NCBI GenBank assembly: GCA_903907075.1
Contig: CAIVMQ010000067.1
Span: forward strand, 62,001-126,000
DNA from: an uncultured Bacteroidia bacterium
Lineage (GTDB): Bacteria; Bacteroidota; Bacteroidia; Bacteroidales; Prolixibacteraceae
Reading direction: 5' to 3'
DNA length: 64,000 nt
Translations under genes and position numbers: made by a program
Notes under the pieces: generated by a model
The model's input: only the letters and a program-made list of their open reading frames with translations
What the model was told of the DNA's origin: nothing
The model's database searches: none
Shown here: positions 18,100 through 51,153 of the stretch, piece after piece
Position numbering within the stretch: position 1 is the first letter of the stretch
Layout of the letters: every line of letters starts with the position of its first letter

Positions 18100-18119
18100 A
18101 AACGCACAGCTGTGCGTTT
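18100..18119 (-). terminator. Perfect 20-bp palindrome between GH32 and the DUF6483-like gene
   Basis: AAACGCACAG followed by its exact complement CTGTGCGTTT makes a 20-bp perfect dyad. It lies 18 nt after the GH32 stop and 45 nt before the next start. It could fold as a terminator hairpin with an AGCT loop, but the following U-tract is poor. It could equally be an operator for the downstream gene. Confidence 0.45.
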
Positions 18120-26400: not shown

Positions 26401-26546
26401 GTGATCTTTACGGGAGCTGCGCTAACCGGATTACCGGAGTTGCTTTGCCCTGCACGAGCAAAAGCAGAGGCTCCGGGGGAGAATACGACAGCTCCTACAA
26501 TAAGTAGTAAAACTGCCTGCTTTTTAAAAACTGATTTCCATTTCAT
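23433..26546 (-). CDS. SusC/RagA TonB-dependent transporter
   Basis: Outer-membrane TonB-dependent importer (1037 residues). Order: signal peptide (~1-31), carboxypeptidase-D-like regulatory domain (~46-125; GKVADASGNALPGVTVVVKG), plug (VVVIGYGSIKKADLTGAVST, then MTVLKDAASAAIYGSRGANG), and a 22-strand barrel ending in the aromatic residue of MLGLNFNF. It has no STN domain, so it is unlikely to signal to an anti-sigma factor; regulation probably comes from the AraC protein at the operon head. It follows iolG by 89 nt on the same strand, so it reads as the distal part of the inositol operon. Confidence 0.94.
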   Translation of the reverse strand: MKWKSVFKKQAVLLLIVGAVVFSPGASAFARAGQSNSGNPVSAAPVKITGKVADASGNALPGVTVVVKGTTTGTITNADGAFSIEASDSKAVLAFSFVGFTTIEKPASQQVINVTLSEDVRKLDDVVVIGYGSIKKADLTGAVSTIAPEKLNQGANQSVAHALQGQAAGVTVIQNSGEPGGGVEIRIRGAGSINDNSPLYVVDGIVGGIGGLNPADIESMTVLKDAASAAIYGSRGANGVVIVTTKKGKRNQKTMVSFNTTQGIQSVWKMPSALDAAQRNMIHKEALTNDGTNPSETIWNYYNDPQNAVTRTDWFKEVLKPANISTQDFSISGGSDKSNFLLSLGYLDNKGIVLNTYYKRYNVRFNSQHDIAKNLTFGENLSILMTESRGADTRGGYDGVMQAAMFNMRNTPVWADKANNTYGLPSGDIPNPVASLNLKDNRGKGTSISGDMYLEYKIFKVLTLKSDIGYSNGYGHGKGFNDIAPGAGRGLMLRNGLGESFSNSYSYEWNNTLSFDKKIDKHHIAALAGTSMEADHYEDLSAGGQDFTNSSPSLRYLNNANTFQNHANGGAGDNSLMSYFGRLSYEFSDKYLLAANIRADGSSKFAQSKRWGVFPSVSGGWRISKEDFFSGLTNTVSDLKIRGSWGQLGNDKIPGYQYYSTMGNAEPPTLGGKEYPAVAQSNFANPSIQWEVTTQSDLGIDANFLNDRLTVTADIYDKETTNVLVQVPLVNSLGVGSAPFRNAGQVSNKGFDMGVTYRNHDHELKWSVTANVAKVNNKFVSFGVAGDKEIFSGWYKNGNVGRITEGEPIGHFFVLNALGLFKSQSEVDSYTKGGQKIQPYAVAGDVKFEDRNGDGEISGNDRFNAGNSFPALTGSLNLNAEYKGFDFSMLFIGSQGNKIFNGLKLGGEFMQGTSYNNSPAILNRWTPQNPNATVPRVTVNDLNNNKQYSTLYIEDGGYARLKYLTIGYTFNKSMIGDKIQKLRLYVTAQNLLTITKYSGFDPEIGNTTGAFSGNIFGIDSGAYPQAKVFMLGLNFNF

Positions 26547-26635
26547 GTTAATTAAACTTAGTGATTAATAAATAGTAATAGTGATTGCAAAATATAGTTA
26601 GGAAATGCATAAACATTAAAAGTTGTAAATATAAA

Positions 26636-27664
26636 CTAAATAACGTTCAGTACTTCAGAAAGTTTAACAGGACGGTGTTCTAAATAAGATTTCTTTGCAG
26701 CAAGAGCTATTGCGACCGATTGTAATCCATCGATACCCGTTACAGGGAGCGATAAGTTGTTCACTACGGCAGTGCAAAAAATCTTCATCTCATTGGCATA
26801 AGACTCGAGATAACGTTCCATAAAGAAGTTCAGAGGTAATGATCCATGAACGCCATCAGCGCCAAAGAAGCGATGGTTTTCTGGATAATTATTATCGGCA
26901 CTGGCCATCCCCTTTGAGCCAAATATTTCGATCCGCTGGTCATAACCATAAACCGCTTTTCGACTGTTGTCAATAACTCCCATGGCTCCATTGGCGAAAG
27001 TTAGGGTTATAATGGCTGTGTCAACATCACCGGCTGCGCCTATCGCAGGGTCTACCAAAACAGCAGCATTGGTATATACTTCAGTTACCTCACTGCCTAC
27101 AATATACCTGGCCATATCGAAGTCGTGGATCGTCATATCCATAAACATACCCCCCGAGACTGCACTATATTCGGCAGGTGGTGGGGCAGGATCACGTGAA
27201 GTAATCTTGAGGATATGGGGATCGCCAATATTTCCTGCTTCTACCAGTTGTTTGATTTTTATGAAATTAGGATCAAAACGTCGGTTGAAGCCGACCATAA
27301 GTTTTACGCCTGCTTTTTTTACCGCTTCCAATGCACCTTGAATGACTTCCAGAGAGAGATCCACTGGTTTCTCGCAAAAGATATGCTTACCTGCCTGGGC
27401 TATCTCGATGATATATTGGGCGTGGGTATCAGTAGGCGAGCAGATTACGACTGCTTCGACATCAGGGTGGTTGATCACATCCTGGTAATTTGTAAATACG
27501 GTTGTTATTCCAAATGATGCGGCAACCTCTTGGGCCCCTTTAAGATTTATGTCGGCTACTGCCACTACTTCAGCCTGCGCTACACTTTGGACTAAGGTGG
27601 CAATATGGACTTTCCCAATCCTGCCTGTTCCTATAACTCCAAGTTTTAATTTCTTCATTTTCAA
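26636..27664 (-). CDS. iolG: myo-Inositol 2-dehydrogenase
   Basis: NAD-dependent Gfo/Idh/MocA oxidoreductase (342 residues) that oxidises myo-inositol to 2-keto-myo-inositol (scyllo-inosose), the first step of inositol catabolism. It has a Rossmann motif GVIGTGRIGKVH (9-20), the family EKP motif with Lys99 in HIFCEKPVDL, and DMTIHDFDMARY with Asp176 and His180, the catalytic pair spaced as in Bacillus IolG. Met3 is a possible alternative start. It is separated from iolE by a 293-nt gap full of hairpins, so its expression may be partly independent of the upstream genes. The neighbouring iol genes support the assignment. Confidence 0.9.
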   Translation of the reverse strand: MKMKKLKLGVIGTGRIGKVHIATLVQSVAQAEVVAVADINLKGAQEVAASFGITTVFTNYQDVINHPDVEAVVICSPTDTHAQYIIEIAQAGKHIFCEKPVDLSLEVIQGALEAVKKAGVKLMVGFNRRFDPNFIKIKQLVEAGNIGDPHILKITSRDPAPPPAEYSAVSGGMFMDMTIHDFDMARYIVGSEVTEVYTNAAVLVDPAIGAAGDVDTAIITLTFANGAMGVIDNSRKAVYGYDQRIEIFGSKGMASADNNYPENHRFFGADGVHGSLPLNFFMERYLESYANEMKIFCTAVVNNLSLPVTGIDGLQSVAIALAAKKSYLEHRPVKLSEVLNVI

Positions 27665-27733
27665 TTTTTTATTTTAATTATGAATTCTATAGTATCATAT
27701 TTGACGTCAACTAATTCAAGACTTTCACTTTTA

Positions 27734-27917
27734 GAGCCATCGGCTCGGATCATTTTTTACCTACGGATTTTTATCCGTAACAGAGACTATACTTTAAGCA
27801 AGAAGTGCCTTAGGCACGGCCCATTTTAAATGGGTCGAACTTACAGTTCTCCTGTTATTTTTTGTTTGGTCAACGGATTAAAATCCGTTGATACCATACT
27901 TTGCGAGGCTACGCCTC
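27734..27917. repeat. Chain of six perfect hairpins between iolE and iolG
   Basis: Six consecutive perfect inverted repeats occur in 184 nt: GAGCC-ATC-GGCTC (27734-27746), TACGGAT-TTTT-ATCCGTA (27762-27779), GTGCC-TTA-GGCAC (27805-27817), CCCATTT-T-AAATGGG (27820-27834), TCAACGGATT-AA-AATCCGTTGA (27870-27891) and GAGGC-TAC-GCCTC (27905-27917). Spacers are irregular and stems differ in sequence, so this is neither a CRISPR array nor a simple tandem repeat. No ORF is present. It interrupts the inositol operon and resembles palindromic dispersed elements. It might also stabilise or attenuate the iol transcript. Confidence 0.75.
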
Positions 27918-27957
27918 TAATGTCGAAAGCTCAAATAATCCCCAAATTCTAATCTAT

Positions 27958-28857
27958 TTATAATCCAAGCGATCTGATGAAATCCCTGTTTCGCTGCGCG
28001 CAAACTTTCGGATTACCCATCCCCGGAAGAACATCTTGTTCAACAACTATCCAACCGGAATAATTTTGGTTCGATAACTCTTCAACAATGGCAGGGAAAT
28101 CAACTCCACCTTTCCCCAGTTCACAAAATACGCCGTGACCTACAGATTGAAAGTAATCCCACCCTTCGGTACGTGATTGAGCGGCAATATCGGGTTGGCA
28201 ATCTTTAAAATGGATATGCCAGATGCGGTTTTTATGTTTTTTTAATGCTTCTAATGGATTGCCTCCTCCGAAGAGGTAATGGCCCATATCGAGCACTAGT
28301 CCTACCAGTGAAGGATCGGTAAGGGCCAAAAGCTGATCGATCTCTTGTGGTGTTTCAACATAACCGGCGCAATGGTGATGGAAAACGGTACGCAAGCCTG
28401 TTTTTGCTTTTACTTCACTGGCAACAAGATTAGCACCGGTAGCAAAGATTTGCCATTCCGATGCTGAAAGTCCAAGATCAGCAGTTACCCTTCCGGCATT
28501 TAACGTGCGTTCCTGTACACTTCCATTATCGTCGGCAAGGACAATAAAGGCATTGGTATAACCTGCATCTACCATAAGCTTGGCCGTCTTAACTGCTAAT
28601 TCGGCTCCCGCTGCATGTTTGGACGCGTCTTTAAGAAACACAGGAACAAAAGCACCTACCATAGCCAAGTCTCGTTGATCCAGTGCTGCTTTTAATTCCT
28701 TTGGCGTTGAAGGCATAAATCCCCAGTCTCCCAGTTCACTCCCTTCGTAACCAGTCTCCTGGATCTCGTTGAGAACCTGCTCATATCCGGCTGCTTGGCC
28801 TGACAAGTCAAACTCCAGAACTCCCCAGGAACAAGGTGCATTTGCAATTTTTATCAT
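27958..28857 (-). CDS. iolE: Inosose dehydratase (IolE-like TIM-barrel protein)
   Basis: A 299-residue xylose-isomerase-like TIM barrel expected to dehydrate scyllo-inosose to the diketone used by IolD. The opening IKIANAPCSWGVLEF matches the NAPCSWG start of inosose dehydratase/isomerase proteins. Metal-site stretches are SELGDWGF, TVFHHHCAGYVETPQEID, LVLDMGHYLFGGG, HIHFKDCQPD and GWIVVEQD. It lies 38 nt downstream of iolA. Since every other step of the pathway is present and the dehydratase is otherwise missing, IolE is the best fit. The related isomerase IolI is the main alternative. Confidence 0.8.
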   Translation of the reverse strand: MIKIANAPCSWGVLEFDLSGQAAGYEQVLNEIQETGYEGSELGDWGFMPSTPKELKAALDQRDLAMVGAFVPVFLKDASKHAAGAELAVKTAKLMVDAGYTNAFIVLADDNGSVQERTLNAGRVTADLGLSASEWQIFATGANLVASEVKAKTGLRTVFHHHCAGYVETPQEIDQLLALTDPSLVGLVLDMGHYLFGGGNPLEALKKHKNRIWHIHFKDCQPDIAAQSRTEGWDYFQSVGHGVFCELGKGGVDFPAIVEELSNQNYSGWIVVEQDVLPGMGNPKVCAQRNRDFIRSLGL

Positions 28858-28895
28858 TGTGTAAAAATTATACGGTTCGTTTCAGTATTTCTAAC

Positions 28896-30368
28896 TTAGA
28901 ATTTTCGTGACCACTCCTCATTCCACCGTTCGATAACCACCTTTGTCTGGGTGTAAAACTCTACAGCATGAGAGGATTGACCATGTAAATCGCCGAAGAA
29001 ACTCTCTTTCCATCCGCTGAACGGGAAGAAGGCCATTGGCGCGGCAACGCCAATATTAACGCCGATATTTCCGGCCATGGTATTGTGTCGAAATTTGCGT
29101 GCTGCAGCACCACTGCGGGTGAAGATACACGCAGAATTTCCGTAACGGTTTCTGTTAATCAGCGCTATGGCCTCCTCAAGGGTTTTCACATTGATAATGC
29201 TGAGCACAGGTCCGAAGATCTCCGTTTTATAGACTTCACTCTCCTCAACTACATTACCGAGTATGGTTGGGCCGATAAAGTTTCCATTTTCATGTCCTGA
29301 TACTTTTACGGCTCTTCCATCAAGCAGTAGATCAGCTCCCTGATCGATCCCTTGCTGAATAAGTTTCTCAATTCGGACTTTGCTCTCTGCACTAATCACC
29401 GGACCCATATCGGCAGAGGAGTCCATTCCGTCTCCGGTTTTCTTCGATAAAGCAAGAGCGATAATTTTTGGTGTGATATGCTCTGCCGCTTCCCCTACGG
29501 TAATCACCACCGATGCTGCGAGACAGCGCTGACCGGCGCATCCAAATGCACTGTCAACGATTATTTTTACGGTTGTTTCAGGTTCTGCATCGGGCATAAC
29601 CACGACAGCATTTTTTGCGCCACCCTGAGCTTGCACCCGTTTCCCATTTAGCGTTCCTGTTTGATAGACATGGCGTGCAACAGGTGTCGAGCCAACGAAG
29701 CTGATAGCCGGAATAAACGGATGTTCCAATATAGCATCCACGGTTTCTCTACCGCCATGCACCATGTTGAGCACTCCTTTCGGAAGGTTTAATGTTTCGA
29801 AGAGTTCGAAGATGCGTGTCATTGTCATTGGGACTTTCTCCGATGGCTTAACGATATAGGTATTTCCACAGGCTATGGCATAAGGCATAAACCAGAATGG
29901 GATCATGATCGGGAAGTTAAACGGGGAGATACAAGCTCCCACACCCAATGGTTGACGGATTACAAACTCATCCACACCGGTAGCAATATCTTCCGAAAAC
30001 ACACTCTGCATTAAGGTTGGAATTCCGCATGCTACTTCAATATTCTCCACGGCACGGGTCATCTCAGCTTTCGATTCTGCATAGGTTTTGCCGCACTCTA
30101 GGGTGCAAATTGCTGCAATCTCATCGGTATGCGATTCAAGCAGTGCCTTCATCTTATAAAGATACTGAACACGTTGAGTCGCCGGTGTATTTCTCCACCC
30201 CTCCCATGCCTGGTTAGCTGATTCGGCAGCATCCACAATGTCTGCCTTACAGCCTGAGGGGACTTTCCCTACGGATAATCCGGTAGAGGGATTAATCACA
30301 TCAAGCATTGAATTGCTCTTGCTCTCAACCCATTGACCGTTGATATAGTTTTTTAATGATTTAGACAT
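28896..30368 (-). CDS. iolA: CoA-acylating methylmalonate-semialdehyde dehydrogenase
   Basis: Aldehyde dehydrogenase (490 residues; mmsA/iolA type) that converts malonic semialdehyde to acetyl-CoA, CO2 and NADH at the end of inositol breakdown. Visible features are FNFPIMIPFWFMPYAIACGN, the NAD-binding SFVGSTPVARHVY, and the nucleophile Cys282 in GCAGQRCLAAS. The general-base Glu of ordinary ALDHs is replaced in the QGGAKNAVVVMPDAE stretch, as expected for CoA-dependent members. It starts 4 nt after iolD ends, so the two are translationally close. The same family serves valine degradation; the neighbours favour the inositol role. Confidence 0.92.
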   Translation of the reverse strand: MSKSLKNYINGQWVESKSNSMLDVINPSTGLSVGKVPSGCKADIVDAAESANQAWEGWRNTPATQRVQYLYKMKALLESHTDEIAAICTLECGKTYAESKAEMTRAVENIEVACGIPTLMQSVFSEDIATGVDEFVIRQPLGVGACISPFNFPIMIPFWFMPYAIACGNTYIVKPSEKVPMTMTRIFELFETLNLPKGVLNMVHGGRETVDAILEHPFIPAISFVGSTPVARHVYQTGTLNGKRVQAQGGAKNAVVVMPDAEPETTVKIIVDSAFGCAGQRCLAASVVITVGEAAEHITPKIIALALSKKTGDGMDSSADMGPVISAESKVRIEKLIQQGIDQGADLLLDGRAVKVSGHENGNFIGPTILGNVVEESEVYKTEIFGPVLSIINVKTLEEAIALINRNRYGNSACIFTRSGAAARKFRHNTMAGNIGVNIGVAAPMAFFPFSGWKESFFGDLHGQSSHAVEFYTQTKVVIERWNEEWSRKF

Positions 30369-42017: not shown

Positions 42018-43442
42018 TTAAAATATCTGATTTAGAATATGCTTACGCTCCTGATGAATTTTTGAGATCAGCTCACCAAAGAGGGTATTAGCCCATGCAA
42101 ACCACGAGCGGGTGAAATTCTCGGGATTATCCTGGTGAAAGGTCTCATGCATAAAGCCGGTGCCGGCATGAGTAATCTTCAGCCATTTAAGACATTGAAT
42201 AATCTCCTGGTCATTTGTTGAGGTCATGGCCCTCATAATTATACTCATTGGCCAGATCATCTCGGCTCCTACATGGGGACCTCCAATCCCGGAAGCTACT
42301 TTACCCTCAAAAAACCAAGGGTTGTCTTTACTTAAGATAAATTTGCGCGTGTTTATATATAGCTCATTATCAGCCTTAATAGTCCCCAGGTAAGGCATTC
42401 CTAAAAGACTGGGGATATTGGCATCATCCATAAATAATCGATTCCCGAAGCCGTCAATCTCGAAGGCTATTGTCTTCCCATAGGAGAGGTGATTTGCCAC
42501 TGCATAATTATGCAGTGCTTTTTCAACAGTATCTGCCAACATGTTACATCTAGATGCAAAAGGGATGTCTTTGAATATGGAGGTTGCCATTTCTCCCATC
42601 TGGCGCAACGAAACCACGGCAAAATAGTTCGATGGAATAAGGAATAAAAAGTTCGTTGCATCGTCAGAAGGTCTGAAGGTGGAGCAGATTAAACCAGTTG
42701 GTTTTATTGGATTTCCATATCCTGCACCACAAACAGTGTCGGTTTGTTTTTCGGTAAGACGCATAAAATGGTATGGCCCATTGCCCGTGAGGCGCTGCTG
42801 CTCCTCGAAGGTCTTGACAATTGATTTAGCCGCATTTAGCCAATTGGGATTGAAAGGGGTTTTATCTTCGGTTTTTTTCCAATAATGGTAGCTTAGTCGA
42901 ATTGGGTAACAGAGCGAATCGATTTCCCATTTGCGTTCATGCAATTCGGGTTTCATATCTGTAAGGTCACTCTTCCATTCGCTTCCCGTAGGGCCAAAAT
43001 TAAACGCATTGGCATAGGGGTCAATCAAGATGCATTTGGCTTGTCTGTTAATCACTCCGACAAAGAGCTTTTTCAGTTGAGGGTCCTGATTGACCAGATG
43101 GAGATAGGGCCAAACTTGTGCCGTTGAGTCACGAAGCCACATCGCATTGATATCGCCTGTGATGATAAATGAGTCTGCTTCTCCTTTCTCCTCAGAGAAA
43201 TGAACAGTAGTATCGAGCGTATTGGGATAACAATTTTCAAATAACCATGCTAGCTCAGGGTCTGCAATATCTTTTTTTATTTTGATGATCTCGGCCTCTA
43301 CGGCCTCACTTTTAAACAGCCGTTTTGAGCTATCGGGACGCATCGAATTTTTTTGCGAAGAGGAAGCTGAGAGGATATTTGGTACTGCAGTAAGTGCTCC
43401 TGCGGTGAGTATGGAGTTGTTAATAAAGGTCCTGCGTTTCAT
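42018..43442 (-). CDS. GH125 exo-alpha-1,6-mannosidase
   Basis: Metal-independent inverting alpha-mannosidase family; characterised members cleave non-reducing alpha-1,6-mannose. The 474 residues begin with a twin-arginine-type leader ([20 protein letters not shown]). GH125 blocks are [20 protein letters not shown] (91-110), [52 protein letters not shown], and the C-terminal [13 protein letters not shown] with [20 protein letters not shown]. It is 133 nt from the trehalase-like gene and in line with the GH92 and phosphatase genes. With GH92 it would strip an alpha-mannan-type chain. Confidence 0.93.
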
Positions 43443-51133: not shown

Positions 51134-51153
51134 AGGGCCGGAGAACCGGCCCT
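51134..51153 (-). terminator. Intrinsic terminator after susD of the mannosidase locus
   Basis: The perfect stem AGGGCCGG-AGAA-CCGGCCCT is followed on the minus strand by TGCTTTTTG. It lies 90 nt beyond the SusD stop and would separate susCD from the DUF3863-GH92 transcript. Confidence 0.85.

Follow-up and report, generated by a model that had tools for sequence, protein, structure and literature searches.

A hairpin chain in a Bacteroidota inositol operon is probably a REP-like element partnered by one clade of TnpA_Y1 transposases

Introduction

Most of what is known about REP sequences and the domesticated transposases that go with them comes from Proteobacteria, where the hairpins carry a GTAG foot. 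For IS608, the rejoining of DNA is known.

According to the survey of PMC6006769, the motif Y---Q--HH is the signature of TnpA_Y1 subclass 1.2, which occurs mostly in Cyanobacteria and Bacteroidetes, and Table 1 of the survey has the entry 'no' for this subclass where other subclasses give a REP type. The same source reports specific nuclease activity for E. coli TnpA_REP. In the open-access literature searched, nothing recognisable was found on arrays of the kind described here or on hairpins tied to subclass 1.2, and no mention of 'Bacteroid' or 'subclass' was found in PMC8266576. Here we describe a chain of hairpins in an operon of a Bacteroidota genome, its relatives in other genomes and the transposase genes that lie beside them.

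Results

Location of the chain

The chain lies in a gap between two genes of the window (the whole 64-kb stretch of DNA that was analysed):

27665..27957 (293 nt): gap of the inositol operon with the hairpin chain; Gfo/Idh/MocA downstream and AP_endonuc_2 upstream, both on the minus strand
26636..27664, minus strand: Gfo/Idh/MocA oxidoreductase gene (IolG-like), downstream of the chain
27958..28857, minus strand: AP_endonuc_2 TIM barrel gene (IolE/IolI-like), upstream of the chain

The operon, all on the minus strand, encodes an SSF transporter, a class II aldolase, KduI/IolB, PfkB, a TPP enzyme, an aldehyde dehydrogenase, AP_endonuc_2, Gfo/Idh/MocA and SusC-like and SusD-like proteins. This gene set of the myo-inositol type fits the label of inositol operon used in the preliminary description of the locus, which had also taken the chain to be non-coding; no ORF of at least 100 aa was found to overlap 27665-27957. 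Rfam had nothing on the element; up to E 1, its sole match in 26500-29000 lay beyond the element at 28267-28340, where a miRNA family scored E 0.38.

Anatomy of the chain

The chain and its parts are as follows.

27734..27917, no strand: the complete chain, in which two copies of a 47-nt unit, inverted relative to each other, enclose a middle part, in a BIME/REPIN-like layout
27871..27917, plus strand: unit copy 1, with hairpin CAACGGATT-aa-AATCCGTTG, 14-nt linker and triloop hairpin GAGGC-tac-GCCTC (covariance model R1, E 7.9e-14, 62.5 bits)
27734..27780, minus strand: unit copy 2, inverted and more degenerate (R1, E 1.7e-6, 36 bits)
27734..27746, minus strand: triloop hairpin GAGCC-atc-GGCTC
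27762..27779, minus strand: 7-bp hairpin TACGGAT-tttt-ATCCGTA
27805..27817, minus strand: triloop hairpin GTGCC-tta-GGCAC
27820..27834, no strand: hairpin CCCATT-tta-AATGGG, in the linker between two facing triloop hairpins
27837..27849, plus strand: triloop hairpin GAACT-tac-AGTTC, 21 nt ahead of the CAACGG stem
27870..27891, plus strand: 10-bp hairpin TCAACGGATT-aa-AATCCGTTGA
27891..27904, plus strand: 14-nt linker ATACCATACTTTGC (family consensus near [C/T]TACAA-AT)
27905..27917, plus strand: triloop hairpin GAGGC-tac-GCCTC

Three parts thus make up the 47-nt unit: a hairpin of 9-10 bp, a linker of 14 nt close to [C/T]TACAA-AT and a hairpin with a 5-bp stem and a loop of 3 nt. On the opposite strand, the inner end of the linker forms a foot of four bases under the long stem, which reads GTAT in the window. 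Unit copy 1 (27871..27917) is itself a row of model R1, and copy 2 (27734..27780) was kept out of model building. Six perfect hairpins had been counted previously; seven were found here, GAACT-tac-AGTTC (27837-27849) having been overlooked or merged.

Across 2000 dinucleotide shuffles, the number of disjoint hairpins averaged 0.29 and never exceeded 3, against the seven counted here in 201 nt. The chain was the densest hairpin spot of the window, where the best sliding 201-nt count elsewhere was 3. Its folding energy corresponded to z -5.6 on the plus strand and z -5.1 on the minus strand, and none of 200 shuffles was as low on either strand. Lone perfect palindromes with arms of 8-10 bp, unlike the chain, were seen in the window at 2744-2765, 18100-18119, 42498-42517 and 51134-51153 and are possibly terminators or operator sites.

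Recurrence of the chain in Bacteroidota

When the window's genome (3.59 Mb, 133 contigs) was searched at the DNA level with the whole chain, the chain itself and 14 matches of at most 31 bits were returned, with no close second copy. Since the stems vary while the architecture persists, DNA similarity by itself misses the family. A generic hairpin pattern gave mostly chance-like matches in this genome, yet led to a second locus on contig C35. By use of model R1, four matches at E <= 0.1 were among those listed for the genome, two in the window and two elsewhere, one of the latter at C35:22826-22866 (E 4.2e-4). At the same threshold and among the matches listed, G012 had 51 copies, G017 had 22 and G009 had 14, and at least 20 copies were found in each of G266 and G305 (20 candidates scored). 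A genome of another family, G060, had 29 weak R1 matches (best E 0.004) among those listed, which may represent a related yet distinct hairpin family.

A pattern combining linker and stem was then run over one genome per GTDB species. It matched at least 116 stretches, of which 80 were looked at and contained 102 matches. Where the titles of these 80 stretches named a group, it was nearly always Bacteroidota, with one Ignavibacteriae record in addition; Algoriphagus, Ferruginibacter, Chitinophagaceae and others were among the groups with a pattern match, and the chain with its parts in the same order was seen in Flavobacterium, Mucilaginibacter, Sediminibacterium, a Mariniphaga MAG and others. 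A perfect 5-bp hairpin was present 5-24 nt downstream of the long hairpin in 82 of the 102 matches (one being an N run), and it stood at exactly 14 nt, the spacing of the window, in 73, compared to 5.7 of 102 at any distance of 5-24 nt in shuffles. Upstream, a triloop hairpin accompanied 65 of the 102 matches, in 62 cases at 20-28 nt (21 nt in the window). A Mucilaginibacter locus (L107) agreed by eye with window positions 27805-27917 part by part. The outcome that the preliminary description had named as refuting its reading, a sequence confined to this site, is thus not borne out: the hairpin chain is neither a product of chance nor unique. The exact stem pattern had no match in viral contigs. 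A first linker pattern had matches in 10 of 296 genomes, in six of which (G186, G095, G272, G310, G203 and G314) no hairpin chain was visible around the match.

Clusters of the element lay outside ORFs of at least 100 aa in 73 of 79 cases, in DNA that is 81% coding (those named loci within L077-L156 that are 6 kb or longer). Intergenic copies had no significant bias in orientation relative to genes (p 0.27), and neighbouring copies at most 250 nt apart were inverted in 77 of 129 pairs in the named loci, a modest excess. Degenerate units were also seen in tandem runs, in L153 (Flavobacterium tegetincola, 35 nhmmer matches) and in L313 upstream of tnpA; these look as if the unit also grows via tandem duplication.

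Covariation, linker and foot

The stems covaried in both of two alignments, so that a lack of covariation, likewise named in the preliminary description as a refuting outcome, is not borne out. Alignment A1 consisted of 50 units: the unit of the window, and 49 out of 97 unique segments, for the most part those in register. Since the other 48 of the 97, including ones visibly off the 14-nt register, were omitted, covariation in A1 leans towards structure; with this bias, standard pairs filled 98.4% of pair cells versus 83.2% when shuffled and double-change cells numbered 91 versus 31, while one of five covariation measures, pairs with double change, was not above shuffles (6 versus 5.4). Alignment A2 was composed of 109 distinct copies from the flanks of transposase genes (without L313 and L324), which were picked by the model rather than by the pattern and fitted to the model. 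In A2, pairing was 93.2% compared to 70.7% when shuffled, with 277 versus 80 double-change cells and a covariation score of 0.474 versus 0.122. The unpaired linker was near [C/T]TACAA-AT with its main positions 92-99% conserved, a conservation that serves as supporting evidence only because the model favours the linker. The foot of the 109 distinct flank copies was GTAG in 65, GTAA in 31, GTAT in 2 and other in 11. The REP foot GT[AG]G is therefore unmatched in the window, whose GTAT is one of the rare variants.

One transposase clade is flanked by the unit

Y1 transposases were detected in 51 of 61 genomes (the window's own and 60 relatives) among the matches listed. At 60 Y1 loci, R1 exceeded 30 bits beside the gene only at L253 (G012) and L286 (G020), the proteins of which (P0002 and P0003, respectively) are 72% identical; L301 (G038) reached 26 bits, and eight others were weak at 14-20 bits. 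A search with P0002 of 24 genomes chosen for carrying the element gave, among the matches listed, 16 genes at 59-80% identity (L313-L328), a single gene per genome, and 14 further loci of the best 30 provided a comparison of lower identity. R1 matches were found in the flanks (up to 1.5 kb) of all 16 clade genes and of none of the 14 lower-identity loci (Fisher p 7e-9, among the matches listed). Seven of the 14 unflanked TnpA loci come from genomes that also hold a clade gene.

A sample of 296 genomes of the phylum was chosen irrespective of the element. P0002 had a match at E 1e-30 in 81 of them, and 30 loci were taken. Among these best 30 loci, seven of eight clade genes were flanked (two of the eight shared with the earlier 16) compared to none of 22 others. 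R1 matched at E <= 1e-4 in six of eight genomes with a clade gene versus 18 of 288 without, a difference to which the flank copies add.

In a tree of 85 proteins, from which three of 88 TnpA loci were omitted as short or duplicate (L371 among them), the flanked genes fell in one clade with a support of 97/98; 23 of 24 genes were flanked within the clade versus 1 of 61 outside. The flank label, positive from 21 bits of R1 and thus negative for L359 (18.2 bits), changed 3 times on the tree compared to 21.1 times with shuffled labels. The exceptions were the clade gene L376, with no R1 match, and L349, which lies outside the clade and is flanked at 26 bits. The truncated gene L371 (59% identity over 93 aa, off the tree) had no R1 match. 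Another P0002-like gene (54% identity), at C5:92878-93327 of G326, had R1 matches within 1.2 kb. Taken together, the REP-like unit is linked closely to one TnpA clade.

A matching transposase, which the preliminary description had proposed to look for, was found in other genomes, as a clade flanked by the unit, and was not detected in the window's genome. P0002 had no match at E 1e-20 among those listed for this genome, and as the assembly is 92% complete, absence of a clade TnpA gene is likely rather than certain. Genomes with many copies and no clade gene found among the matches listed included G017 (22 copies, 78% complete) and G009 (14 copies, 98% complete). The only Y1 transposase of the window's genome, on C111, was weighed as a partner and dismissed, since DNA next to the 9 genes of its group (YIQNQEQYHW) holds a single triloop hairpin in 2741 nt.

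Class of the partner

The motifs of P0002 are DHVH, FEWQ and YIANQEEHH. Assigned by motifs against PMC6006769, the protein carries the subclass 1.2 signature together with DH[IV]H and WQ. The NCBIfam model for IS200/IS605 transposases scored 70.8 bits (cut-off 55) and that for REP transposases, NF047646, 26.3 bits (cut-off 80), while the closest solved structures by sequence are IS608-type TnpA. By anatomy P0002 thus resembles a REP partner, yet it lies outside the recognised REP transposase class, as the NCBIfam REP model stays below its cut-off.

Hairpin arrays beside other transposase clades

Hairpins of the 5-3-5 type with at least 3 G/C per arm were counted next to 133 non-identical Y1 genes. 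The R1 clade had 7.5 hairpins per kb (24 genes). Beside 74 other P0002-like genes, 279 hairpins were counted in 45,085 nt of adjacent DNA (6.2 per kb), with two or more at 55 of the 74; other gaps of these loci had 1 hairpin in 3,591 nt, a small background that makes the ratio rough. The LSQVYVH group (16 genes) had 5.7 per kb, and its other gaps were equally rich (4 in 525 nt). The QYHW group, the type of the window's genome, had 0.36 per kb (9 genes), the SYVKIW group (6 genes) had none, and of two small groups, one of 3 genes had 2 hairpins in 1778 nt and the other, a lone gene, had 0 in 375 nt. Stems vary by clade, including ACCGC-gta-GCGGT, GCCTC-gta-GAGGC and ACCCC-aga-GGGGT. The flanks of L342, L348, L357, L359, L331 and others were seen to hold triloop-hairpin arrays of their own, with different stems.

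History of the iolE-iolG gap

The iolE-iolG gap was readable in nine congeners besides the window's genome (G000). In six of the nine (G002, G006, G013, G008, G011 and G015) it was about 30 bp long and free of hairpins. A shorter chain in G009 shared the end hairpins GAGGC-gta-GCCTC and gatcc-GAGCC-NNN-GGCTC with the window, and G012 (L038:1258-1498) had unrelated direct repeats of the ccagttgccag type instead of hairpins. A different chain, of three hairpins, was present in G010 (L034:1218-1501), and it was 87-94% identical over 31-62 nt to DNA flanking the TnpA gene that G010 itself carries on C412 (L293:507-568, 1316-1440 and 2073-2103). Since this gene (tree copy L358) falls outside the R1 clade, the iolE-iolG gap has taken in elements of two TnpA clades.

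A tree of two neighbouring genes placed G000 with G006 and G009 with G002, and the gaps of G006 and G002 are empty. Between G000 and G009, the right flank aligned with a score of 39, reached by 0 of 2000 shuffles, or by 21 of 2000 without the last 35 nt; similarity of the left flank was chance-like (422 of 2000 shuffles as high). Comparison of the G000 and G009 flanks leans towards one older insertion with later losses, and two insertions are possible.

Discussion

We consider it highly probable that the chain is a non-autonomous REP-like (BIME/REPIN-like) element, built of hairpins able to fold as single strands and belonging to a Bacteroidota family whose partner is a single clade of TnpA_Y1 HuH transposases bearing the signature of subclass 1.2. 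The preliminary idea of a REP/MITE-like mobile element of Bacteroidota was thus right in kind, as borne out by the many genomes with the family, the covarying stems, the filled and empty states of the site and the flanked clade. Points against a REP reading include the low number of R1 matches in the window's genome, four among those listed at E <= 0.1 when REPs usually number more than 100 copies per genome, the lack of a detected clade TnpA gene there, and the genomes with many copies in which no clade gene was found.

The location of the chain would also suit a cis-acting RNA that tunes IolG and SusCD relative to the upstream enzymes via mRNA processing, stability or attenuation: the chain stands between same-strand genes of an apparent operon, RNA of the operon strand is unusually stable (z -5.1), two terminator-like sites occur versus 0.4 expected, and a part in termination and in stabilising mRNA has been hypothesised for REPs (PMC3733652). 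We regard such an RNA as improbable, because six of nine readable congener gaps are about 30 bp long and hairpin-free, including those of the tree neighbours of both chain-carrying genomes, because the element has no Rfam match, and because the 47-nt unit occurs in many other gaps with no significant gene-orientation bias (p 0.27). A regulatory side effect of the chain in the operon is possible; a role as operon-tuning RNA is not needed.

Quite improbable as well is a MITE or decayed ordinary IS200/IS605 element, the hairpins being subterminal ends of a deleted IS. The partner protein does score 70.8 bits against a cut-off of 55 and resembles IS608 TnpA, but each of 16 genomes had a single clade gene among the matches listed, units are dispersed without the gene, and several units in both orientations, rather than one left and one right end, lie beside it. 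That the chain is a stack of intrinsic terminators, to which the two terminator-like matches might point, or a set of palindromes clustered by chance is scarcely credible and was refuted as a full explanation: none of 2000 shuffles had more than 3 hairpins, five of the seven hairpins were not called terminator-like, and the same ordered chain recurs, with covariation, in other genera.

For the REP-like element that we favour, a mechanism may be proposed by analogy with TnpA_REP and IS608 TnpA. The TnpA would bind the unit as a folded single strand with linker and stem as its guide, and could cut and rejoin the folded unit. The unpaired linker, which on the opposite strand forms the GTA[G/A] foot under the long stem, would be a natural guide. 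Past cutting and rejoining may have spread copies, one of them into the iolE-iolG gap. The copy in the window would now be an orphan that is probably decaying, because its genome has no detectable clade TnpA gene and a single Y1 gene of another group. If the chain affects iol mRNA at all, it would do so secondarily.

On balance, we favour the broader view that subclass 1.2 is a Bacteroidota-wide group of REP partners, each clade of which has its own code of 5-bp triloop and linker, and that these families have repeatedly invaded intergenic DNA; in the iolE-iolG gap, the window's genome and G009 would then hold the family that goes with one clade, and G010 that of another. A separate transposase subclass of many Bacteroidota appears to own a composite hairpin system, in which the stems are specific to each clade and the linker is conserved. 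Such a system would offer many natural pairs of protein and DNA on which the reading of single-stranded hairpins by HuH enzymes could be tested, and it would account for puzzling clusters of palindromes in the intergenic DNA of Bacteroidota. Palindrome clusters of this kind in operons should accordingly not be taken for riboswitches or attenuators without caution.

Several described systems resemble the one presented here. REP, BIME and REPIN elements with TnpA_REP (RAYT) of class 2 (E. coli, Pseudomonas and Stenotrophomonas; PMC6006769) share with it short foldable palindromes, mostly intergenic and in inverted pairs, and a HuH transposase gene with repeats of its own family on its flanks. 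By contrast, the partner here has Y---Q--HH, the unit is multi-hairpin with 5-bp triloop stems, and the feet are GTAG, GTAA and GTAT. IS200/IS605 elements (IS608, ISDra2) belong to the same Y1 family by sequence, with hairpin recognition likely, but no complete multi-copy IS was seen here and many units are dispersed without the gene. CGTC-tagged palindromic repeats (PMC3733652) likewise form repeat families, in five phyla including Bacteroidetes; by their description, the CGTC tag sets them apart from the GTA[G/A/T] foot. Subclass 1.2 itself (PMC6006769) shares with the partner protein the DH[IV]H, WQ and Y---Q--HH motifs, a length of about 150 aa, occurrence in Bacteroidetes and low copy number; the survey gives no REP for it and describes it as generally without IS200 ends, whereas the genes here are flanked by triloop-hairpin arrays. 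Among the published statements found, the nearest is that of PMC6006769 on subclass 2.6, with its 'atypical secondary structures': it too occurs in Bacteroidetes and has unusual hairpins at the transposase gene and copies elsewhere in the genome. The motif YIH[QN]NP of subclass 2.6 sets it apart from YI-NQ--HH here, while the type of hairpin could overlap.
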